From Candidatus Moraniibacteriota bacterium (GTDB lineage Bacteria > Patescibacteriota > Minisyncoccia > Moranbacterales > UBA11712), in the NCBI GenBank assembly GCA_028695025.1, contig JAQVJV010000009.1, positions 1-35,994 of the forward strand: a stretch of DNA of 35,994 bases. The letters are read 5' to 3'. Each line of letters starts with the position of its first letter. The first letter of the stretch is position 1. Both the position numbers and the translations under genes were made by a program. The notes beneath the pieces were generated by a model. The model saw only the letters and a list, made by a program, of their open reading frames with translations. It was not told where the DNA came from and searched no databases. Shown piece by piece: positions 1 through 32,574 of this stretch.

Positions 1-65
1 TCTTCTTTCTTGGGAAGATCGATAATTGGGGCGATTAACGCCCACTGTTCGTTGGTAGTGTCCAT
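1..65 (-). CDS. Partial IS transposase N-terminus (IS5/IS4-like, DUF4096-type), runs off the left edge
   Basis: Reverse complement from 65 reads MDTTNEQWALIAPIIDLPKKE, resembling 'xxTDEQWxxIxPLLP' transposase N-termini; possible TGGTATAAT -10 at 104..96 (minus). Confidence 0.7.
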   Translation of the reverse strand, partial: MDTTNEQWALIAPIIDLPKKE

Positions 66-149
66 AGCACAATTTTTGTTTTGTTTATGCTATGAATTAT
101 ACCAAAGAATTTTGAGATACGCTCTAATATGTATTAATTCGTAATTTTT

Positions 150-1763
150 ATGAACAAAGACTATATAATCGAATCATTGAAAAAACAAATCGAAGGTTTC
201 AAGGCCGAAACAAAATCCGAGAAAACCGGGCGGGTGGTTGAAGTCGGGGACGGAATCGCGCGCCTAAGCGGGCTTTCCGACGCGATGGCTTCGGAAATGC
301 TGGAATTTCAAAGCAAATCCGGAACGACTTTCGGCGTGGCTCTCAACTTGGAAGAAGACCAGATCGGAGCGATGATCCTCGGGGAATATGAACAGATCAA
401 AGAAGGCGACGCGGTGCGCTCGACCGGGAAAATTCTTTCCGTCCCGGTGAGCGAAAAAATCATCGGGCGTGTTGTGAATCCGCTCGGGATTGCAATTGAC
501 GGAAAAGGTTCAATAACAGATTCGCACGAATTAGATACAGATTCAACACAGAGGACACAGATGGGTAATCTGTGTAATCCGCGTGAAATCAGTGATAAAT
601 CCGCGAAAATTGGTGGGTTAAAATTCTATCCGATTGAAAAAATCGCCGCAGGGGTGATTGAGCGCGAATCAGTGAAAGAACCGCTCCAAACCGGGATCAA
701 AGCGATTGACTCGGTGATCCCGATCGGGCGCGGCCAGCGCGAACTCATCATTGGCGACCGCCAGACCGGAAAAACGGCAGTGGCGATTGACGCGATTATC
801 AACCAAAAAGATGGCGACGTGATTTGCATATATGTCGCGATCGGTCAAAAGGAATCAAAAGTGGCGCGTATCGTGGCGGAACTCGAAAAAAACGACGCCA
901 TGGAACATACGATTGTCGTGGTGGCGGGTGCGTCTGATCCAGCTTCCCTTTCTTTCATTGCGCCGTATGCTGGTTGCGCCATCGGGGAATATTTCATGGA
1001 TCAGGGGCGCGACGTGCTCATCATCTACGACGATCTTTCCAAGCACGCCTGGAGCTATCGCCAAGTCTCGCTTCTTCTTCGCCGTCCGCCGGGACGCGAG
1101 GCCTATCCGGGGGATATCTTCTATTTGCACTCCCGTCTTCTTGAACGAAGTGCTAAGCTCTCAAAAGAATTCGGGGGCGGATCAATCACGGCTCTTCCGA
1201 TCATTGAAACCCAAGCCGGCGATGTTTCCGCATATATTCCGACGAACGTCATTTCCATTACGGACGGGCAGATTTATCTTGAAGCCGATTTGTTCTACAA
1301 GGGAATTCGTCCGGCTCTGAACGTCGGTCTTTCAGTGTCGCGCGTGGGATCAGCCGCCCAAATCAAGGCGATGAAAAAAGTGGCCGGGAAACTGCGGCTT
1401 GACCTTGCCCAGTTCCGCGAACTCGAGGCCTTTGCCCAATTCGGTTCCGATCTGGATGAATCAACCCGCAAACAGATTGAACGAGGCCAGCGGACGGTGG
1501 AAGTTTTGAAGCAGGATCAGTATGAACCGATGCCGGTGGCGAACCAGGTGGCGATTATCTACGCGCTCACCAACGGATATCTCGACGATGTGGCGGTGGC
1601 CGACATTCAAAAATGGGAAAAAGATTTTCATAGCTATTTGAAAGACGCGAAGCAGGATGTTTTGGATCTCATCGCGGAGAAGAAAGAAATCACGGAAGAA
1701 GTTGAAGAGAAACTCAAGAAAGCGATTGATGAGTATAAAGAAATTTATAGTAATGATCAATAG
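150..1763 (+). CDS. atpA: F0F1 ATP synthase subunit alpha, with an in-frame insertion
   Basis: [16 protein letters not shown]-loop, [26 protein letters not shown], and AtpA C-terminal region. Confidence 0.97.
511..602. repeat. Inverted-repeat element of the ACACAGATTA family lying in frame inside atpA
   Basis: aacagattcgcacgaattagatacagattcaacacagaggacacagatgggtaatctgtgtaatccgcgtgaaatcagtgataaatccgcg; arms match the repeats flanking the GxxExxY gene. Confidence 0.8.
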
Positions 1764-1784
1764 AATTTTACAATTTGGTTTTCT

Positions 1785-1821
1785 GAAGGCTCAACCTTCG
1801 GAGGCCGAAGGTTGAGCCTTC
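1785..1821. repeat. Perfect palindrome between atpA and atpG (16-bp arms); same family as the element inside uppP
   Basis: GAAGGCTCAACCTTCG-GAGGC-CGAAGGTTGAGCCTTC. Confidence 0.9.
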
Positions 1822-1824
1822 ATT

Positions 1825-2787
1825 ATGCCACAAGGAATACGCGAACTGAAAAGACGCATCAAGTCCGTCAACAATACCAAAAAAATCACCCGCGCCATGG
1901 AAATGGTGGCGGCTTCGAAGATGCGTCGGGCGGTATCGGCGGTTCTTGCAGTGCGTCCCTACGCCCATTCTGCCTGGTCAATTCTCACCAATATGGCGCG
2001 TGCTTTTGAAAACTACGAAACCCCGCTGCTGGTTGCACGGGAAGTGAAAAATATTTGCGTGATTGTGATAACTTCAAACCGCGGTCTCTGTGGCGGATTC
2101 AACTCACAGATTTTGCGAAAAGTGAACGAACAGCTGAAAAAGCCAAGCCTCCTCAAGATCAACCGGGTTGGCGATAAAAGGATCGAATCAAAAGTGGCGG
2201 ATGAGGATATAAAAATTGATTTCATTACTATCGGCCGGAAGGGAAGTGATTTGGTTTCGAAACTGGGGCGGAAAATTATTGCCCAATTTAACGAGTTGAC
2301 TTATATGCCCAAAGCCGAAGAAGTGCGGGCGATGGCGCGATTGGTGATGGATGATTATGCGGCGGGAAAATACGACAAGGTTGTGATCGCTTATACGGAC
2401 TATGTTTCGGCGGTTTCCCAGCAATCGAAACTGCGCCAGATCCTTCCGATTTCGAAAATTGATCTTGAAAAGCAATTGGCTGAAATGGATATTCACGCCG
2501 ATGAGTATGGACTCAACGAGCCGCCGATGGAATATAAAGTAGAACCGGATGCCCGGACAATCCTTGAAAATATTCTACCGCGGCTGGTCGAGATGCAGAT
2601 ATACCACGCGATCCTCGAGTCGAACGCTTCGAAGGAATCGGCGCGGATGGTGGCGATGCGGAACGCGACGGATGCGGCGACGGATATGGCGGACAACCTC
2701 ACCCTTGTTTTCAACCAGGCTCGCCAAGCCGGAATCACGCAGGAAATCGCGGAAATTTCCGCGGGACGCGCGGCGCTGGAGCAATAA
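1825..2787 (+). CDS. atpG: F0F1 ATP synthase subunit gamma
   Basis: MPQGIRELKRRIKSVNNTKKITRAMEMVAASKMRRA; SNRGLCGGFNSQ; C-terminal MRNATDAATDMADNLTLVFNQARQAGITQEIAEISAGRAAL. Confidence 0.96.
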   Translation: MPQGIRELKRRIKSVNNTKKITRAMEMVAASKMRRAVSAVLAVRPYAHSAWSILTNMARAFENYETPLLVAREVKNICVIVITSNRGLCGGFNSQILRKVNEQLKKPSLLKINRVGDKRIESKVADEDIKIDFITIGRKGSDLVSKLGRKIIAQFNELTYMPKAEEVRAMARLVMDDYAAGKYDKVVIAYTDYVSAVSQQSKLRQILPISKIDLEKQLAEMDIHADEYGLNEPPMEYKVEPDARTILENILPRLVEMQIYHAILESNASKESARMVAMRNATDAATDMADNLTLVFNQARQAGITQEIAEISAGRAALEQ

Positions 2788-4285
<1,498 letters not shown>

Positions 4286-4817
4286 ACGCGGATTTAAAAC
4301 GGATTTAACACAGATAACACAAATTAAAACAGATTATTTAATGTATAATAGGGAGGATAAAAAATTTTTGTACAAAGATTTGAGTTATAGGCTTGTTGGA
4401 ATTTGCATGGCAATACACAGAGATTATAAAGCTATCCACAGCGAAAGGATATATCACAAGGCATTTGAAGAAAAATTGAATCTGGAGAATATCAGATTTT
4501 TGTCAAAACCGAAAGTTACAATTTATTCAAGAGATACTGGAAATGAAATCGGATATTATGAGCCAGATTTGGTGCTCGACGAGAAGATTGTTGTTGAGCT
4601 TAAAGCAACGCCACAAAATTTTAGAAAATATGAGATCCAGCTCTCGGAGTATCTGAAAATATCAGAATATGAGTTGGGATATTTGATAAATTTCGGCTTG
4701 CCTTCCCTTTATTTTAAAAGAATTATTTATACCAACGATAATAAATCATTTTTTTCGAGAATTAAGCAAAAAAAATCTGTGTAATTCGTGCCAATTTGTT
4801 ATAAATTTGTGTAAAAT
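4286..4817. mobile_element. Putative GxxExxY cassette: ORF bracketed by inverted ACACAGATTA-type repeats, between the atpD stop and atpC start
   Basis: Left: acgcggatttaaaacggatttaacacagataacacaaattaaaacagatt. Right, reverse complement: ttttacacaaatttataacaaattggcacgaattacacagatt. Confidence 0.5.
4341..4784 (+). CDS. GxxExxY-family protein (possible PD-(D/E)xK-like fold)
   Basis: SYRLVGICMAIHRDY...SERIYHKAFEEKL...YEPDLVLDEKIVVELKATPQNFRKYEIQLSEYLKISEYELGYLINFG; D...ExK-like pattern; start at 4341 excludes repeat-encoded residues. Confidence 0.8.
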   Translation: MYNREDKKFLYKDLSYRLVGICMAIHRDYKAIHSERIYHKAFEEKLNLENIRFLSKPKVTIYSRDTGNEIGYYEPDLVLDEKIVVELKATPQNFRKYEIQLSEYLKISEYELGYLINFGLPSLYFKRIIYTNDNKSFFSRIKQKKSV

Positions 4818-5255
4818 ATGTCTACCATAAAATTCAAGATCGTCACTCCCGAACGCACTGTATATTCCGACGCGATCGGCCAGCTTACCATTCCGACCAT
4901 GGAAGGCGAAATCACCGTGCTTCCTGGACATATACCGATTATTTCCGTTTTGGTTCCGGGCGAGCTTATGGTGAAAAAAGACGGCGAAGAGGTAGCGATG
5001 GCGGTTTCCGGCGGTATGGTGGAGGTTCGCAAAAACGAAATAACAGTGCTCGCCGACACGGCCGAACGGGCGGAAGAAATCGATCTCGCGCGGGCGGAGG
5101 AGGCGCGGGCCAAAGCCGAAAAGATCAAGGAAGAAAAAATCCGGATGGATGACGTGGAATACGCGGCGGCCGTCGCGGCGCTTCTCGAAAGGAACCTTGC
5201 CCGCATCCGCGTGGCCAAAAAGCACCTGACGAAAAGGGGAATGAGGATTGAGTAG
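4818..5255 (+). CDS. atpC: F0F1 ATP synthase subunit epsilon
   Basis: MSTIKFKIVTPERTVYSDAIGQLTIPTMEGEITVLPGHIPIISVLVPGEL; C-terminal helical segment. Confidence 0.96.
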   Translation: MSTIKFKIVTPERTVYSDAIGQLTIPTMEGEITVLPGHIPIISVLVPGELMVKKDGEEVAMAVSGGMVEVRKNEITVLADTAERAEEIDLARAEEARAKAEKIKEEKIRMDDVEYAAAVAALLERNLARIRVAKKHLTKRGMRIE

Positions 5256-5365
5256 CACAAGTTTAACACAAATTTTTCCCAGATTAAGGCAGATTACGCA
5301 GACTGTATTTGTGTAATCTGTGCAATCTGCGGAAATATGTTAATAATCCGTGTAAAATCTGTCTT
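5256..5365. repeat. Gene-less inverted repeat of the ACACAGATTA family (MITE-like)
   Basis: agcacaagtttaacacaaatttttcccagattaaggcagattacgcaga...tttgtgtaatctgtgcaatctgcggaaatatgttaataatccgtgtaaaatctgtc. Confidence 0.75.
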
Positions 5366-5812
5366 ATGAAAACAGAATTTAAATTCAAAGGAATTCACTG
5401 CTGTGAGGCCGTCGTCCTCGCCTGTATCGACTTCCGCTTTTGGAAGGAGACAATGAAGTTTGTCGAAGAGGAACTCGGGATTAAATCGTATGACTTTCCG
5501 AAGCTTCCCGGCTCGGCGAAAGCCATCAACGAGTGCGCGAGCGGCGCGGACGTCCCGATGGCCTGTATCGGCGTGCCATGCGATTTGCACCATGTCGGAA
5601 AAATCGTGATTGCGAATCACTCCGATTGCGGTGCCTACGGCGGATCGGCAAAATTCAACGGAGACGATGAAGCCGAACAGAAGTTCCACGAATCGGAACT
5701 CAAAAAAGCCGAAGAAAAAATCAAAGCCCAATATCCCGGTAAAGAAGTGGTTCTCGTCTACGCGAAACTGGTGGACGATGGGGAGAATATTGATTTTTTG
5801 CGGGTGGATTAG
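5366..5812 (+). CDS. Compact beta-carbonic-anhydrase-like protein
   Basis: C-x-D-x-R (ACIDFRF) and H-x-x-C-G (HSDCGAYGG) zinc-ligand motifs; start re-assigned to MKTEFKFKG. Confidence 0.65.
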   Translation: MKTEFKFKGIHCCEAVVLACIDFRFWKETMKFVEEELGIKSYDFPKLPGSAKAINECASGADVPMACIGVPCDLHHVGKIVIANHSDCGAYGGSAKFNGDDEAEQKFHESELKKAEEKIKAQYPGKEVVLVYAKLVDDGENIDFLRVD

Positions 5813-5839
5813 ATTTTTTGTGTTTATAGCTGAAATTAT

Positions 5840-5878
5840 AAAAGGCGAGTCTCATTGGACTCGCCTTTTATTTTTTTA
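5840..5878 (+). terminator. Rho-independent terminator
   Basis: AAAGGCGAGTC-TCATTG-GACTCGCCTTTT followed by a T-rich run. Confidence 0.85.
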
Positions 5879-5880
5879 TA

Positions 5881-5909
5881 TTGACAAGAAAAAAATATTT
5901 TTGTATATT
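5881..5909 (+). promoter_or_regulatory. Sigma70-like promoter for the cytidylyltransferase-like gene
   Basis: TTGACA (5881-5886), 17-bp spacer, TATATT (5904-5909). Confidence 0.75.
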
Positions 5910-5945
5910 ACAAAAAAACATTTCCAGGAAAGGAGATTTAGGTTT

Positions 5946-6470
5946 ATGCCTCAAAACAAAATTTTCGGGTTAGGGGATGTCGGAAATGTGTGTCGCGAAC
6001 TGAAACATCGCGGCGAAAAAATTGTTCTTACTACGGGTTGTTTTGACTTGGTACATCCGGGTCATGTCATTCATGTGCATCAAGTCGGTGCATTTGGGTG
6101 TCTTGTTGTTGGTATTAATAGTGATCAGTTTGTCAAAAAAATGAAAGGACCCTTTCGACCTGTCCAAGGCCAGGATGCAAGGGCGTTCATTATGGCTGGA
6201 TTTACTCCAGTCCGAATCGTCACGGTTTTTGATGACGATTATCGCCTTATTGAAGAAGTTCAGCCAGACATATATGTTTTGTCCACATTGTCGCATATAC
6301 GGGTCGGCGAAGATCCGGAACGCGTTCAGCTTCTCAAGAGTTTGGGTGCAGAAATCAGAGAAGTTGATGGGCGAAAGATCGACTCAACGACAAATTTGAT
6401 AAAAAGGGCAGCACTGATTGCGGCAAACCCATACAATGCCGTCACGACAACCCAAGCTCCTCAGCAATGA
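5946..6470 (+). CDS. Adenylyl/cytidylyltransferase-like protein (RfaE/HldE C-terminal-like)
   Basis: TTGCFDLVHPGHVIHVHQV (GxFDxxHxGH-type nucleotidyltransferase motif), INSDQFVKKMKG; SD aggaaaggag. Confidence 0.8.
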   Translation: MPQNKIFGLGDVGNVCRELKHRGEKIVLTTGCFDLVHPGHVIHVHQVGAFGCLVVGINSDQFVKKMKGPFRPVQGQDARAFIMAGFTPVRIVTVFDDDYRLIEEVQPDIYVLSTLSHIRVGEDPERVQLLKSLGAEIREVDGRKIDSTTNLIKRAALIAANPYNAVTTTQAPQQ

Positions 6471-6514
6471 AGCTAGCCACAATATTGGCTTTGGAAGTCG
6501 AAATGATTACTTTT

Positions 6515-6547
6515 CGGTCGCCTTGAATCATCGGGCGACCTTATTTT
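6515..6547 (+). terminator. Rho-independent terminator
   Basis: GGTCGCC-ttgaatcatc-GGGCGACC then TTATTTT. Confidence 0.7.
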
Positions 6548-6569
6548 GGGAAAATATTAATAAAATCAT

Positions 6570-7052
6570 ATGCGAATCCTCGACAAAAAAAGAGCCACCT
6601 ACAAAAAAGTATATACGGATGACGATTCGTGCGTTTTTTGCCGGAAAGACGAGCATGAGTGCGACGGCCTTTCGGGCAGGTATTGGCGTGTAATGGCAAA
6701 CAAGTTTCCATATATGGATGGAAATGTCATGATCGTTTCTAAGAGGCATGTTGGAAAAGTGGAAGAAATCACAAAAAAAGAATGGGAAGAATTCGGAAAA
6801 ATTCTTTCCAATACTCAAAAAGTTTTGGGTGAAATATTCAAAACAAATTCTTTCAATGTCGGATTGAATGTCGGTCCAGAGTCTGGTGCGTCCATCGAAC
6901 ATTTGCATTGGCAGGTCATCCCGAGAAAGTTCAAGAATATCACAGTGATGAATACATTCGCAGATCTATATCTAGTGGCAGTTTCAGCGGAAGAGACAAA
7001 AAAGATGATAGATGCGATTACTAAAAAATCTAAATTAAATCTGAAAAAATGA
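6570..7052 (+). CDS. HIT-superfamily protein with H-x-H-x-Q active-site motif (GalT/Ap4A-phosphorylase-like)
   Basis: CVFC near N-terminus; GPESGASIEHLHWQVIPRK. Confidence 0.75.
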   Translation: MRILDKKRATYKKVYTDDDSCVFCRKDEHECDGLSGRYWRVMANKFPYMDGNVMIVSKRHVGKVEEITKKEWEEFGKILSNTQKVLGEIFKTNSFNVGLNVGPESGASIEHLHWQVIPRKFKNITVMNTFADLYLVAVSAEETKKMIDAITKKSKLNLKK

Positions 7053-7188
7053 CCCATCTTCTCAATTTCGAAGCGGGGCTTTCTTCTTGACTGAAAAGCG
7101 CGGAAGTACTATAAAGACAAAGGTTCTTTTAAGTTAATTACATATTGTCAGGCAAATTTTTTTGTAAATAAAATTTTTAGGAGGAGAC

Positions 7189-7638
7189 ATGTCACACATA
7201 TGTGAGGCGGTGCTTATTACTTGCATGGACTTCCGTCTTCATCAAAGAAAAGATGGGCGCAATTACATCGCTGATTATATTCAGATGATGGGTATTGACT
7301 GCGACCTAGTCACGCGCGCTGGTGGAATACTCGATTTATTGAATCCGGCAAAAAATAGTTTTGCGGATTCAATACTTCGTGATGCAAATGTATCTCATCA
7401 GCTTCACAGTGCCCACACTCTCTTGTTTATTAATCACGAAGATTGTGGAGCCTATGGTCAATTCAAATTCAAGACGAGGCACGAAGAAATCAGAAAACAT
7501 GAAACGGATCTTCGTTGGACATTGAAAACTCTTCATTTATTGTTTCCCGAGAAAAGGATAATCGGTTCATTTGCTGAGTTGGAAAATGGGACAACGGATG
7601 TTTTTAATATCCACAAAGTATTTCAATACATGCCGTAA
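7189..7638 (+). CDS. Second compact beta-carbonic-anhydrase-like protein
   Basis: TCMDFRL (CxDxR) and NHEDCGAYGQF (HxxCG) match the layout of the 5366..5812 protein; SD aggagga. Confidence 0.6.
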   Translation: MSHICEAVLITCMDFRLHQRKDGRNYIADYIQMMGIDCDLVTRAGGILDLLNPAKNSFADSILRDANVSHQLHSAHTLLFINHEDCGAYGQFKFKTRHEEIRKHETDLRWTLKTLHLLFPEKRIIGSFAELENGTTDVFNIHKVFQYMP

Positions 7639-7668
7639 TAGACTGAAATTGAAATATTTGAAAATCAT

Positions 7669-7704
7669 AAGCTCGGGGCTTCAATGAACCCTCGGGCTTT
7701 TTTC
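7669..7704 (+). terminator. Rho-independent terminator
   Basis: AAGCTCGGGG-cttcaatgaa-CCCTCGGGCTTTTTT. Confidence 0.7.
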
Positions 7705-7756
7705 TTGATAAAATCCCCAAAACGAGCTAAAGTGAGTATGTATAAAAGTGGCATTT

Positions 7757-10639
7757 ATGAAAAAATATAATCCAAAATCTATCGAGGCGAAATGGCAGAA
7801 ATACTGGCGGAAAAAGAAATTGCATAACACTTCCGACAGCGTGCCCGGGAAGAAAAATTTCATACTGCTCACCGAATTTCCCTATCCGTCCGGGAATTTG
7901 CATATCGGCCATTGGTATGCGTTTGCTGTGCCGGACATCCTGGCGCGGTTTTTGCGTTTTCAGGGAAAAAATGTGATGTATCCGATGGGCTTTGACGCTT
8001 TCGGCCTCCCGGCGGAGAACGCGGCGATCAAGCGGAAATTGGATCCCAAAAAATGGACCGAGCAGAACATCAAATACATGGCCGACCAGTTCGAAACAAT
8101 GGGAGCGAGTTTTGATTGGTCGCGGAGCGTCTCGACGATTGATTCGGAATATTACAAATGGACGCAGTGGATATTTCTCGAAATGCTCAAAAACGGGCTT
8201 GCCAGGAAAGCCGAAACGACTGTCAATTGGTGCCCGGGATGCAAGACGGTGCTTGCGAACGAACAAGTGGTGAATGGCGCATGCGAGCGTTGCGACGCGG
8301 CGGTCGAGCAAAAAAAGATGGCTCAGTGGCTGTATCGGACCACGGCTTATGCCGACAAACTGACGGACGATCTTGAGAAACTCGATTGGCCGGAGTCGAC
8401 GAAACTGGCGCAGAAGAATTGGATTGGAAGAAGCGAGGGAACAACCATAAAGTTCAAAGTTAAAAGTGAAAAGTTAAAAATTAAGGAAGACATTCATTTT
8501 AAAGTCTTCACGACGCGCTTGGATACTATATATGGCTGCACTTATTGCGTGCTTGCTCCCGAGCATCCGCTCGTCGAAGAATTGAGAGACGGAATAAAAA
8601 ACTATAAAGATGTAGAAAAATATATTGCCAAAGCCAAGAAGAAAACCGAACTTGAGCGCACCGAACTTCAAAAGGAAAAAACCGGCGTTGAGCTCAAAGG
8701 CGTAAGCGCCATAAATCCATTTACAAATGAAGCCGTGCCGATATTCGTTGCCGATTATGTCCTGGGAAACTATGGGACCGGCGCGGTGATGGCGGTTCCC
8801 GCCCACGACGAACGGGACTGGGAATTTGCGAAAAAATACAAATTGCCTGTGAAGCAATCAATCGCTCCCCATAGCTTTGATGAAAAAAATCCTCCTCGAA
8901 AAGGAAAAAAGAATACGGTGAGAAAAGTGGTTCACGTTTTGCTCACAAGAAAAAACGGCGATGTCCTGACATTGAACCTGAAAGGCGATGAGTGGGGAAA
9001 AGAGAAGCCAAAGACATTTGTCATTGGCGGAATCGAAGATGGGGAAAGTCCTGAAAAAACGGCGCTTCGCGAAGTGCGGGAAGAAACCGGATATGCGGAC
9101 GTGGAAGTCGTGAAGGTGATGCCCATTGAATTCCATGCGGAATTTTTTGCGGCCCACAAGGATGTGAACCGGTACGTGAAAACGACCGGCGTGGTTTGCC
9201 GATTGAAATCGGAAAAGAGGCGGGAAGTGAGCGAGGAAGAAAAAAACCTCCACGAGCTTGTTTGGGTGAAGCGGGAAAAGCTCCCGACTTCCCTTACTAT
9301 TCCGGACGATATTTTTCTTTCTAAGGCCTATCTTGAAGCTGTTGATACTTATGCCGGACCGGGGGTTCTGATCGACTCCGGAAAATATTCCGGACTTGAT
9401 TCCGCAAAAGCCCGCGAGGAAATGGCGAAGTGGCTTGAGAAAAACAGGCTTGGAAAAAAAACGGTGAACTATCGCCTTCACGACTGGGTGATTTCGCGGC
9501 AGAGATATTGGGGAGCGCCGATCCCGGTCGTATACTGCGAAAAGTGCGGAATTGTTCCTGTTCCAGAAAAAGATCTTCCGGTGAAACTTCCTCCGCTCAA
9601 GGATTTTCTTCCGACCGGAGACGGAAAATCGCCGCTTGCGAAAGCCACGAAATGGGTGAATGTGAAATGTCCGAAATGCGGGAGCCGGGCCGAGCGCGAG
9701 ACGGACACGATGGACACGTTTGTCGATTCATCCTGGTATTTCTTGCGCTACGCCGACCCCAAGAACAAGAAAAAATTTGCCGAACGCGCCAAGATGAAAA
9801 AATGGCTTCCGGTTCCGCTATATATCGGCGGCGCGGAACACAATACGATGCATCTCCTCTACTCCCGCTTTTTCACGAAAGTTCTCAATGATCTTGGGCA
9901 TGTCGATTTCGACGAACCTTTTGTCGGGCGGCGCAATCATGGGACGATCCTCGGTCCGGACAACCAAAAAATGTCCAAATCACGCGGGAACGTCATTGAT
10001 CCGGATGAGCAGGTGAAGAAATGGGGCGCGGACAGCGTGCGGATGTATCTTGCTTTCATGGGTCCGTACGACCAAAACGCCAGCTGGCAAATGACCGGAA
10101 TTGTAGGCGTACGGCGGTTTTTGGAGAGAGTATGGAAATTGAAATCAAAGATCAGTGAACAAAGACCAGTGAACAATGAATTGGAAAGCTTGTTCAATAA
10201 AACCATCAAAAAAGTTACAGAAGATATTGAGAATCTGCATTTCAATACTGCTATAAGCTCATTGATGATACTTCTTAACGAATTGGAAAAACAAGAACAA
10301 ATATACATTATACATTATACATTATACATTATACTTTTAAGCCCTTTTGCTCCTCATGTCGCCGAAGAAATCTGGTCTGAACTCGGTCATGGGAAGTCTA
10401 TTTTTCTTGAAAAATGGCCGAAATATGATCCGAAACTTGTTCAGGAAACGGAAGCGACGCTTATCATCCAGGTGAACGGAAAAGTCCGCGATGAGATGAA
10501 AATTGCGATTGAGGCGGGCGAGCGAGAAGCCAAGGGCCTGGCTCTCCAGTCAGAAAAAATCCAAAAATATATTCCGGACGAAGCCGAAATCAGAAAAATA
10601 ATTTTTGTTCCCGGACGGCTCATCAATTTTGTGCTATAG
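7757..10639 (+). CDS. leuS: Leucyl-tRNA synthetase with a Nudix domain inserted in the CP1 editing region
   Basis: YPSGNLHIGHWYAFAVPDILAR; NQKMSKSRGNVIDPDE; editing-domain FTTRLDT and AVPAHDERDWEFA; Nudix box GGIEDGESPEKTALREVREETGY. Confidence 0.95.
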   Translation: MKKYNPKSIEAKWQKYWRKKKLHNTSDSVPGKKNFILLTEFPYPSGNLHIGHWYAFAVPDILARFLRFQGKNVMYPMGFDAFGLPAENAAIKRKLDPKKWTEQNIKYMADQFETMGASFDWSRSVSTIDSEYYKWTQWIFLEMLKNGLARKAETTVNWCPGCKTVLANEQVVNGACERCDAAVEQKKMAQWLYRTTAYADKLTDDLEKLDWPESTKLAQKNWIGRSEGTTIKFKVKSEKLKIKEDIHFKVFTTRLDTIYGCTYCVLAPEHPLVEELRDGIKNYKDVEKYIAKAKKKTELERTELQKEKTGVELKGVSAINPFTNEAVPIFVADYVLGNYGTGAVMAVPAHDERDWEFAKKYKLPVKQSIAPHSFDEKNPPRKGKKNTVRKVVHVLLTRKNGDVLTLNLKGDEWGKEKPKTFVIGGIEDGESPEKTALREVREETGYADVEVVKVMPIEFHAEFFAAHKDVNRYVKTTGVVCRLKSEKRREVSEEEKNLHELVWVKREKLPTSLTIPDDIFLSKAYLEAVDTYAGPGVLIDSGKYSGLDSAKAREEMAKWLEKNRLGKKTVNYRLHDWVISRQRYWGAPIPVVYCEKCGIVPVPEKDLPVKLPPLKDFLPTGDGKSPLAKATKWVNVKCPKCGSRAERETDTMDTFVDSSWYFLRYADPKNKKKFAERAKMKKWLPVPLYIGGAEHNTMHLLYSRFFTKVLNDLGHVDFDEPFVGRRNHGTILGPDNQKMSKSRGNVIDPDEQVKKWGADSVRMYLAFMGPYDQNASWQMTGIVGVRRFLERVWKLKSKISEQRPVNNELESLFNKTIKKVTEDIENLHFNTAISSLMILLNELEKQEQIYIIHYTLYIILLSPFAPHVAEEIWSELGHGKSIFLEKWPKYDPKLVQETEATLIIQVNGKVRDEMKIAIEAGEREAKGLALQSEKIQKYIPDEAEIRKIIFVPGRLINFVL
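8453..8475. repeat. Short AT-rich repeat in the leuS reading frame, near-identical to 23059..23081
   Basis: TTCAAAGTTAAAAGTGAAAAGTT vs TTCAAAGTTAAAAATGAAAAGTT (22/23). Confidence 0.7.
10304..10334. repeat. 7-bp tandem repeat (TACATTA, about 4.4 copies) inside leuS
   Basis: TACATTATACATTATACATTATACATTATAC, encoding YIIHYTLYII. Confidence 0.9.
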
Positions 10640-27742: not shown

Positions 27743-27876
27743 GAGTAATATCTTATCAAATAATACGCGATTTATCAAAACAATCTTTTTGCCAATAGGT
27801 GTATTTCCCTTTATATAAAACAAAATCCGCCCCTTGCCAAGCGGCGGAAAAACTGCTATTATCAATGCAGTGAAAT

Positions 27877-27975
27877 GCAAATACGCGAATGAATGCAAAT
27901 GATGCGAATATGCAAATTTGCAAGTTTTTATTCACAAATTCTGTATTTGTGTAAGATTCGCGTCATTCAAGTAGT
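27877..27975. repeat. Inverted-repeat element (ATGCAAATnCGCGAATGAATGCAAATG family) upstream of lepB
   Basis: atgcaaatacgcgaatgaatgcaaatgatgcgaatatgc...tgtatttgtgtaagattcgcgtcattc; about 34/39 identity with 32486... Confidence 0.85.
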
Positions 27976-27984
27976 ATCTCTATT

Positions 27985-28590
27985 ATGTCCGACAAAGAAA
28001 AAAGCGATTCCGATTCCTATGAATACGGGTTTTCCGGCGTAATTTGGGAAATCGTGAAAATGGTTTTCTGGGTGGTGGTGATCATAGTCCCCATCCGGGT
28101 TTTTTTGATTCAGCCTTTTTTTGTCCAAGGCGCTTCCATGGAGCCGAATTTTGAGGACAAGCAGTATCTTATCGTGAATGAATTCGGCTACAAAACCACG
28201 GAACTCGGGAATTTTTATGCCGTAAAGCCCTTCAAGGAACTCAAGCGCGGCGATGTGGTGGTTTTCCGCTATCCGCGCAACCCGTCCGTTTTCTATATCA
28301 AACGCATCATCGGTCTTCCGGGCGAGCGGATCCAGGTTTCCAACGATCAGGTGAAAATCTTCAACGCCGAAAATCCGAATGGTTTTGTCTTGGACGAAAG
28401 CGGCTATCTCTCAAAAGACGTGAATACTTCCGGAGAAGTGAGTGTCGCTCTGGGCGAGGAATATTTCGTGATGGGGGATAACCGGGAATTTTCTTCCGAT
28501 TCTCGCTCTTGGGGACCGGTGCCGGAAAAGGATGTGATGGGGAAAGTGGTTTTGCGCGCTTGGCCGCTAAATAAGGCCTCAATATACTGA
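27985..28590 (+). CDS. lepB: Signal peptidase I
   Basis: FFVQGASMEPNFEDKQYLIVNEF; RGDVVVFRYP...YIKRIIGLPGERI; YFVMGDNREFSSDSRSWGPVPEKDVMGKV. Confidence 0.96.
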   Translation: MSDKEKSDSDSYEYGFSGVIWEIVKMVFWVVVIIVPIRVFLIQPFFVQGASMEPNFEDKQYLIVNEFGYKTTELGNFYAVKPFKELKRGDVVVFRYPRNPSVFYIKRIIGLPGERIQVSNDQVKIFNAENPNGFVLDESGYLSKDVNTSGEVSVALGEEYFVMGDNREFSSDSRSWGPVPEKDVMGKVVLRAWPLNKASIY

Positions 28591-28599
28591 AAGTTTGGG

Positions 28600-28700
28600 A
28601 TTTTCAATTTGAAATTTAAAATGAGTTTTAAATGAAAAAATTTTAAATTTAGCAATTTTGGATTTTATTTTAAGCTTCAAATTTCGAATTTAAAATTTAC
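28600..28700. repeat. AAATTTGAAATTT-type inverted-repeat spacer
   Basis: CTTCAAATTTCGAATTTAAAATT (28675..28697) matches 30463..30485 at 22/23; left arm tttcaatttgaaatttaaaatg. Confidence 0.75.
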
Positions 28701-28705
28701 GATTT

Positions 28706-30063: not shown

Positions 30064-30414
30064 ATGAACGAATGTATTTTTTGTAAAATTGCAAACAAGC
30101 AGATTCCTGCCAAAATCATCTACGAGGACGATTCAGCGGTTGCTTTCCATGACCGCGCGCCGCTTGCTCCGGTCCATGTTCTCATCATTCCCAAGAAGCA
30201 TATTGAATCAGTGGCTGATATGGAAGAGCGGGACGCGCCGCTTATGGGGCATATGATCTATACTGCCAAGAAAATCGCCGACGACTTGAAAATTTCCGGG
30301 AAAGGGTATAAACTGCTTTTTCGGGTCGGGCGTCACGGCGGACAGGAGGTGGAGCATATCCATCTGCATCTGATCGGCGGGGCTAGATTGAGAGAAGACA
30401 TAGGGCCGGCATAA
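30064..30414 (+). CDS. HIT-family protein (HinT-like)
   Basis: CIFCKIANKQIPAKIIYEDD; VEHIHLHLIGG histidine triad. Confidence 0.93.
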   Translation: MNECIFCKIANKQIPAKIIYEDDSAVAFHDRAPLAPVHVLIIPKKHIESVADMEERDAPLMGHMIYTAKKIADDLKISGKGYKLLFRVGRHGGQEVEHIHLHLIGGARLREDIGPA

Positions 30415-30485
30415 AATTTGAAATTTTCGATTTGAAATTTGAAATTTGAAATTGATTTCGAACTTCAAATTTAGAATTTAAAATT
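30415..30485. repeat. AAATTTGAAATTT-type inverted-repeat spacer
   Basis: aatttgaaattttcgatttgaaatttgaaatttgaaattgatttcgaacttcaaatttagaatttaaaatt. Confidence 0.75.
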
Positions 30486-30504
30486 CTCTGAAAGGGGGTT
30501 ATAT

Positions 30505-32062: not shown

Positions 32063-32503
32063 ATGCGAGTGAATATCGAAATCAACAACCTCACCCGAAG
32101 GAAGATCGATCCGGAGTTGGTGAAAAAAGTCGTGAGAAAAACGGTGAAACTGTCCGGAGCGGATGCGGCATCTTTTGAGCTTTCAGTTGTTTTTGCGGGT
32201 GAAGCGGAAATGCGGAAAATTTACCGTGAGTATAAAGGAAAAAACAAATCCACAGACGTGCTTTCTTTCCAGCTCGATTTGGGGTATAATAAAAAGAGCC
32301 GAAAAAATCTTTCAAAAAATATTTCCGGGGAAATCATTTTGTGCCCGGCGGTGATCGCGAAGAACGCCCGCGAGAACGAGGTCAGTTTTTCAAGTGAGCT
32401 GGCTTTTGTCTTGAGCCACGGGACGCTTCACGTTTTGGGATGGAACCACAGCCGGAAAATGTATGAACTGCAGGATGAAGCTATGATGCAAATCCACGAA
32501 TGA
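32063..32503 (+). CDS. ybeY: Endoribonuclease YbeY (rRNA maturation factor)
   Basis: NKSTDVLSFQLD; LSHGTLHVLGWNH (HxxxHxxxxxH); stop codon supplied by the downstream repeat. Confidence 0.92.
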   Translation: MRVNIEINNLTRRKIDPELVKKVVRKTVKLSGADAASFELSVVFAGEAEMRKIYREYKGKNKSTDVLSFQLDLGYNKKSRKNLSKNISGEIILCPAVIAKNARENEVSFSSELAFVLSHGTLHVLGWNHSRKMYELQDEAMMQIHE

Positions 32504-32574
32504 ATGCAAATGGCGCGAATTTGCGAATTCTCATATTCGTGTATTTGCATAAGATTCGCATATTTGTGTTTTCT
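32486..32574. repeat. Inverted-repeat element of the ATGCAAAT/CGAATGAATGCAAATG family, overlapping the ybeY 3' end
   Basis: atgcaaatccacgaatgaatgcaaatggcgcgaatttgc...tattcgtgtatttgcataagattcgcatatt. Confidence 0.85.

Follow-up and report, generated by a model that had tools for sequence, protein, structure and literature searches.

The 23S rRNA intervening sequence of Coxiella, which occurs with the protein S23p, is cut out of the rRNA, and S23p itself is a four-helix bundle and not a nuclease. The Rpn (YhgA-like) nucleases have a PD-(D/E)XK-type fold, and we know of no link between Rpn proteins and flanking periodic palindromes. Like the elements described here, the Coxiella sequence is a short selfish element of about 430 nt that has one small gene and is inserted in a conserved gene (PMC4990558). 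Rpn proteins are nucleases linked to recombination and offer a further likeness, although they belong to a different family from GxxExxY (PMC5350276). Free-standing homing endonuclease genes carry out intronless homing, for example in T4-like phages (PMC2988022). Short periodic palindromes occur in Patescibacteria-type spacers and inside proteins, and for palindromes like the Rickettsia palindromic elements (RPE) the accessible part of a review names no enzyme for entry into genes (PMC10969869). A search of open-access literature found no paper on GxxExxY-linked repeats or their words. Here, a palindrome after atpC is described that, judged from its sequence, is a putative gene-less, non-autonomous derivative of a nuclease-carrying, mobile-looking element. 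Comparisons overall covered about 400 related genomes.

The palindrome after atpC and its copies in the genome

The stretch 5256-5365 of the window (the whole 35,994-nucleotide stretch of DNA that was analysed) sits between atpC and a small carbonic-anhydrase-like gene. The first-pass annotation had read it as a MITE-like copy with two inverted arms and no ORF between them, one of three copies within 5 kb together with a copy in atpA and a GxxExxY unit. Both arms were recovered by an arm sequence model, no ORF was found between the arms of the post-atpC copy, and the three copies share one consensus of four boxes, ACACnAATTTnTnACAGATTnAACACAGATTACACAGATTA, obtained from 12 aligned arms of six loci. 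The features of these copies are:

518-562, plus strand: left arm of a gene-less in-frame copy inside atpA (model R1, E 1.6e-9)
565-611, minus strand: right arm of the gene-less in-frame copy inside atpA (model R1, E 1.2e-11)
4281-4327, plus strand: left terminal inverted repeat of the full element, atpD|atpC (model R1, E 1.6e-10)
4341-4784, plus strand: GxxExxY gene, PD-(D/E)XK nuclease (TIGR04256, PF13366; conservation)
4773-4818, minus strand: right terminal inverted repeat of the full element, ending at the atpC start (model R1, E 7.5e-11)
5260-5304, plus strand: left arm of the gene-less copy after atpC (model R1, E 1.2e-9; alignment A1)
5305-5312, no strand: loop between the arms, without an ORF (sequence; fold)
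5313-5358, minus strand: right arm of the gene-less copy after atpC (model R1, E 3.1e-11)

The arms at 5260-5304 and 5313-5358 are imperfectly complementary and form a hairpin with a loop of 8 nt. Their E-values follow by construction, because the model was trained on the post-atpC arms among others. Against dinucleotide shuffles, the RNA fold of the stretch had an energy of -33.8 vs -17.5 kcal/mol (z -5.64, 0/200) and its DNA fold a z of -3.37 (1/200). A chance origin is ruled out by the shuffles together with the genome-wide arm model, and a known RNA family by the lack of any Rfam match in positions 1-9000. Two different Pro_CA_2 (putative carbonic anhydrase) proteins are encoded within 2 kb, at 5366-5812 and 7189-7638, and in the leucyl-tRNA synthetase at 7748-10639 an inserted NUDIX domain (PF00293, 49 bits) follows the match to the editing domain.

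The copy count for the 984-kb genome comes from searches with patterns and models. The genome-wide search with the arms that had been proposed at first pass, made with a sequence-only arm model, returned seven two-arm copies, one of which encloses GxxExxY. The training set held six of the seven, and the rpsL|rpsG copy was found by the model. The four copies outside the window, all from the arm model, are:

C31:1105-1199: two-arm copy, atpE|atpF
C31:125-204: two-arm copy after atpH
C1:45955-46038: two-arm copy, secY|adk
C1:30108-30216: two-arm copy, rpsL|rpsG

Since contig C31 carries the upstream half of the atp operon that continues in the window, five of the seven copies lie in one operon. 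Such clustering would suit old within-operon duplications spread by repeat recombination, two of which happen to enclose the nuclease gene. The flanks of the seven copies, however, have no mutual similarity, and the copies are therefore dispersed and not segmental duplications. In addition, two copies (secY|adk and rpsL|rpsG) are far off in ribosomal-protein operons, and the same layout with other words recurs at 112 loci of the order and at most of 28 other loci of the phylum. Local duplication is thus highly improbable.

The palindromes have also to be weighed as selected host intercistronic stem-loops that act in mRNA stability or translation uncoupling in highly expressed operons and are not mobile. 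The strong RNA fold of the post-atpC copy agrees with this, as do the position of 7/7 copies in atp, str or spc operon genes and the presence of some palindrome in the same atp spacers of most family relatives; in genus g24 there is a palindrome in nearly every atp spacer. One copy, however, lies inside atpA, where AtpA is 32 residues longer than in G002 (AtpA alignment), and others are in frame inside lepA. Sequences differ between relatives and track the nuclease clade and not the operon, and some relatives have no palindromes: at atpD|atpC the site is empty in G003 and G004, where the spacer is absent and atpD and atpC overlap. Host stem-loops as the whole explanation are improbable on these grounds. 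Because the palindromes in the same atp spacers of most family relatives are unrelated ones, retention of hairpins by the host, the chief competing influence, could also contribute.

Copies in many genomes without GxxExxY, which the first-pass annotation had named as the observation that would separate the repeat from the protein, did not appear. A gene-less ACACAGATT pair was found in one other genome (G003, one copy, beside galT), the only one of seven other family genomes with a copy. With a less strict word search, four of 132 genomes of the order matched, including G009 with two isolated word matches and G025, in which a 17-mer was rejected as a chance match inside a coding gene. From our own reading of its translation, we take this gene to be a U32 peptidase.

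Other palindromes were also observed in this genome, two of them in the window:

27874-27955, no strand: gene-less palindrome with ATGCAAAT/GCGAAT words of another GxxExxY subfamily
32484-32568, no strand: second gene-less palindrome with the same ATGCAAAT/GCGAAT words

These words match those of the GxxExxY subfamily L036, L101, L106 and L112, and this genome has no such gene. Repeats of the AAATTTGAAATTT type at 28590-28705 and 30413-30487, on both sides of hisS, may represent yet another palindrome family. A palindrome GTCATCCCGG...CCGGGATC of the GTCATCC type follows adk (L002 about 2270-2420, G000:C1), and an ACGAAT-word palindrome after fusA in the str operon (L210, G000:C1 about 32830) is possibly a copy of another subfamily. 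The 17-mer TTTTGAGATACGCTCTA occurs at the window start (1-126) and, inverted relative to the operon, at the end of C31 (L003:110-126), which suggests that an insertion sequence lies between atpH and atpA and breaks the assembly there.

The GxxExxY nuclease and the repeats around it

The element at atpD|atpC is the only full copy in the genome and carries its only GxxExxY gene (4341-4784). It measures about 530 bp, 460-500 bp being usual. The encoded protein belongs to the GxxExxY family, with scores above both curated cut-offs (TIGR04256, 80.1 bits, cut-off 35; PF13366 or PDDEXK_3, 79.4 bits, cut-off 22). It has the catalytic D...(D/E)xK arrangement of PD-(D/E)XK enzymes, with D76, E86, K88, Q100, Y104 and R127, and the G of the motif is replaced by K30. 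None of the D, K, Q, Y and R residues varies across 115 GxxExxY proteins, and at the position of the catalytic E every protein but one has E or D. In same-site pairs of related genomes dN/dS was 0-0.24; the GxxExxY proteins have therefore been kept working by purifying selection. A profile search for structural kin gave weak matches, and all four nuclease matches were T7-endonuclease-I-like junction-resolving enzymes (best E 0.014). The single-sequence structure model of the nuclease had a pLDDT of 49, too low for fold searches. A viral origin was considered and rejected, since 0/4 viral-contig pattern matches encode a relative and no phage record matched.

GxxExxY loci (117 from 56 genomes of the order, 112 usable) were compared for their flanks. 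When the left flank was aligned with the inverted right flank at the 112 loci, the median score was 50 vs 24 for mismatched pairs, and the mean rank of the own partner was 0.946. The repeats consist of boxes of 6-7 nt with spacing peaks at 8, 10-11, 18-19 and 26-27 nt, and box words include TACGAAT, TACTAAT, ACAAAAT, CACTGATT, GCGAAT, ATCCGAAT, ACGCGGAC and ACACAGA. Phylum-wide, the GxxExxY gene is present in 47/287 genomes, and the same flank test on 28 loci gave a weaker yet clear result (40 vs 22, mean rank 0.85). Of four plasmid loci outside the phylum, one (Bernardetia, Bacteroidota) had clear repeats with CACAGAG words and the other three were weak. Nuclease and adjacent genes were co-directional in 94 of 103 cases, and both neighbours were opposite in none (21 to 1 in the phylum), which fits expression by read-through and strand-specific insertion alike, the data not separating the two.

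It is the protein, and not the genome, that the box words follow. In comparisons between genera, repeat similarity was correlated with protein identity at a Mantel rho of 0.40 (1000 permutations: null sd 0.027, maximum 0.087), and in 85 of 88 cases the repeat of a locus was more similar to that of its closest protein in another genus than to those of paralogs in its own genome. Insertion sites, too, go with the protein clade: on the protein tree, 16 changes account for the site labels (minimum 15; shuffled 37.2), and 75 changes on 96 rows for the genus labels. The sister of the window protein, which is 57% identical and has ACACAGA words, is exactly at atpD|atpC in four genomes of another family. 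The start of the hydrogenase large-subunit gene is the site of one clade and of part of another (10 loci, 8 genera). One subfamily occurs in frame inside host proteins, namely in a RecG loop between QRAxLQ and PHFLTMTATP, in a LepA loop before DTPGH, and in LeuRS. Many genera have the gene in frame in these RecG and LepA loops, both sites recur elsewhere in the phylum, and the LepA site has been entered at least twice by different members (51% identical). Exact TACTAAT (TACTAATATACTAAT) words in one genus numbered 9, 3 and 3 in genomes with a TACTAAT-clade gene vs 0, 2, 1 and 0 in those without.

The gene could also encode a host or passenger protein that binds the repeats, an unrelated enzyme doing the moving. 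GxxExxY is not a known transposase, insertion takes place without duplication, and G003 has a gene-less copy without a cognate gene, all of which are in line with a passenger role. The correspondence of words and sites with the nuclease clade points the other way, as do the invariant catalytic residues and the absence of any gene besides GxxExxY inside the elements. A passenger protein is consequently an unlikely reading.

Empty sites and signs of spread

Empty and occupied states of the same site were found when empty sites were looked for, as had been proposed at first pass; the target duplications named in the same proposal were not. In lepA of one genus, the full element is present in G043, G113 and G116 and there is none in G111, G114 and G115. 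The same genus has, in another loop of lepA, a gene-less in-frame palindrome of 26 residues with the same ACGCGGAC words. Joined-flank searches showed full, gene-less, one-armed and empty states in different species at four further sites. Among 89 non-redundant full elements, end repeats were no longer than in shuffled sequences (0.55 vs 0.67 +- 0.11), giving no target-site duplication, and a clear target consensus was not found. When elements at one site were compared between species, they were more similar than both flanks in 19 of 20 pairs, which points to spread after the hosts had split; for the atpD|atpC pair, the element was 99.0% identical and the flanks 86.7 and 90.1%. The same-site similarity could partly reflect old vertical inheritance. 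Taken with arm homology and clade-tracking words (112 loci), the empty sites and the presence of cognate words in gene-less copies from the same gene or genus uphold the earlier proposal that the repeat is linked to GxxExxY in an autonomous and non-autonomous layout.

Other genes were observed between palindromes in atp spacers. A GIY-YIG gene in the atpG-atpD spacer (L213, G031) is flanked by GTCATCCTGAA-type palindromes, and a 23S_rRNA_IVP gene in the atpF-atpH spacer (L212, G071) by GTTCACAGT repeats; both Pfam matches were confirmed. These are possibly parallel nuclease- or protein-linked palindrome families, and they suggest that there are several such nuclease-palindrome pairs.

Proposed mechanism and comparison with known systems

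The element is probably a homing-like nuclease element with non-autonomous palindromic derivatives, of which the post-atpC copy would be one. Homology, architecture, association, site preference, empty sites, purifying selection and recent spread come from the data; DNA binding, cleavage, the insertion route and mobilisation in trans are the steps that we infer. The autonomous unit consists of one small gene, for the PD-(D/E)XK nuclease GxxExxY, enclosed by inverted repeats. Each repeat has about four boxes of 6-7 nt at distances of roughly 8 and 10-11 nt. The boxes, or the cruciform that they can form, may be recognised by a dimer or tetramer of the nuclease, which would cut at or near a conserved target, the element then being copied in through repair or a single-stranded intermediate without target duplication. 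Every protein clade has box words of its own and favours particular sites in housekeeping genes, atpD|atpC in the clade of the window protein. Arms-only copies could still be placed, probably in trans, and would build up between the genes of strongly expressed operons or, in frame, inside protein loops.

These comparisons suggest an undescribed family of elements that may enter fixed places in essential bacterial genes. As a tentative proposal, GxxExxY elements may constitute a separate class of bacterial mobile elements in which the ends of the autonomous unit and the entire gene-less palindromes are both made of clade-specific box words, and in which homing into essential genes is combined with non-autonomous dispersal. 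Periodic palindromes are now linked to a specific nuclease family of unknown function, with predicted recognition boxes and a predicted target site for each clade. If this is true, the variable inserts in AtpA, LepA, RecG and LeuRS would be explained, and a range of small, site-specific nucleases whose target preferences can be read would be at hand.

As for the MITE-like character assigned at first pass, terminal inverted repeats without an ORF are present, but target-site duplication and a DDE transposase partner are not, the partner encoding a PD-(D/E)XK protein. A strict MITE reading is ruled out by the lack of both. The REP/REPIN-RAYT (TnpA-REP) systems are similar in that dispersed palindromes are tied to one nuclease gene that is itself surrounded by related palindromes, the sequence class follows the enzyme, and there is no target duplication (PMC3116915, PMC8266576). 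Unlike these systems with their Y1 HUH transposase, the gene of the present element is PF13366 and its enzyme PD-(D/E)XK, the arms have four boxes and about 45 nt, the gene lies between two arms, and the sites are clade-specific. Some copies are moreover in frame in genes, the atpA copy among them, and location is therefore not extragenic only. The in-frame copies in atpA and lepA resemble RPE, described in the accessible part of a review as palindromes of roughly 100-150 bp in frame in essential protein genes (PMC10969869). That part names no mobility gene for RPE (PMC10969869), whereas in GxxExxY elements a nuclease gene carries the same arms. Like free-standing homing endonucleases, GxxExxY elements have a small nuclease gene with a patchy distribution in a fixed, conserved place between or inside conserved genes, with empty alleles, and spread later than the host genes (19/20 same-site pairs; PMC2988022). 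Unlike them, GxxExxY elements have inverted repeats of short periodic boxes and are found in bacterial chromosomes with many gene-less copies elsewhere. Overall, the behaviour of the element is closer to site-specific homing than to that of a freely jumping transposon.
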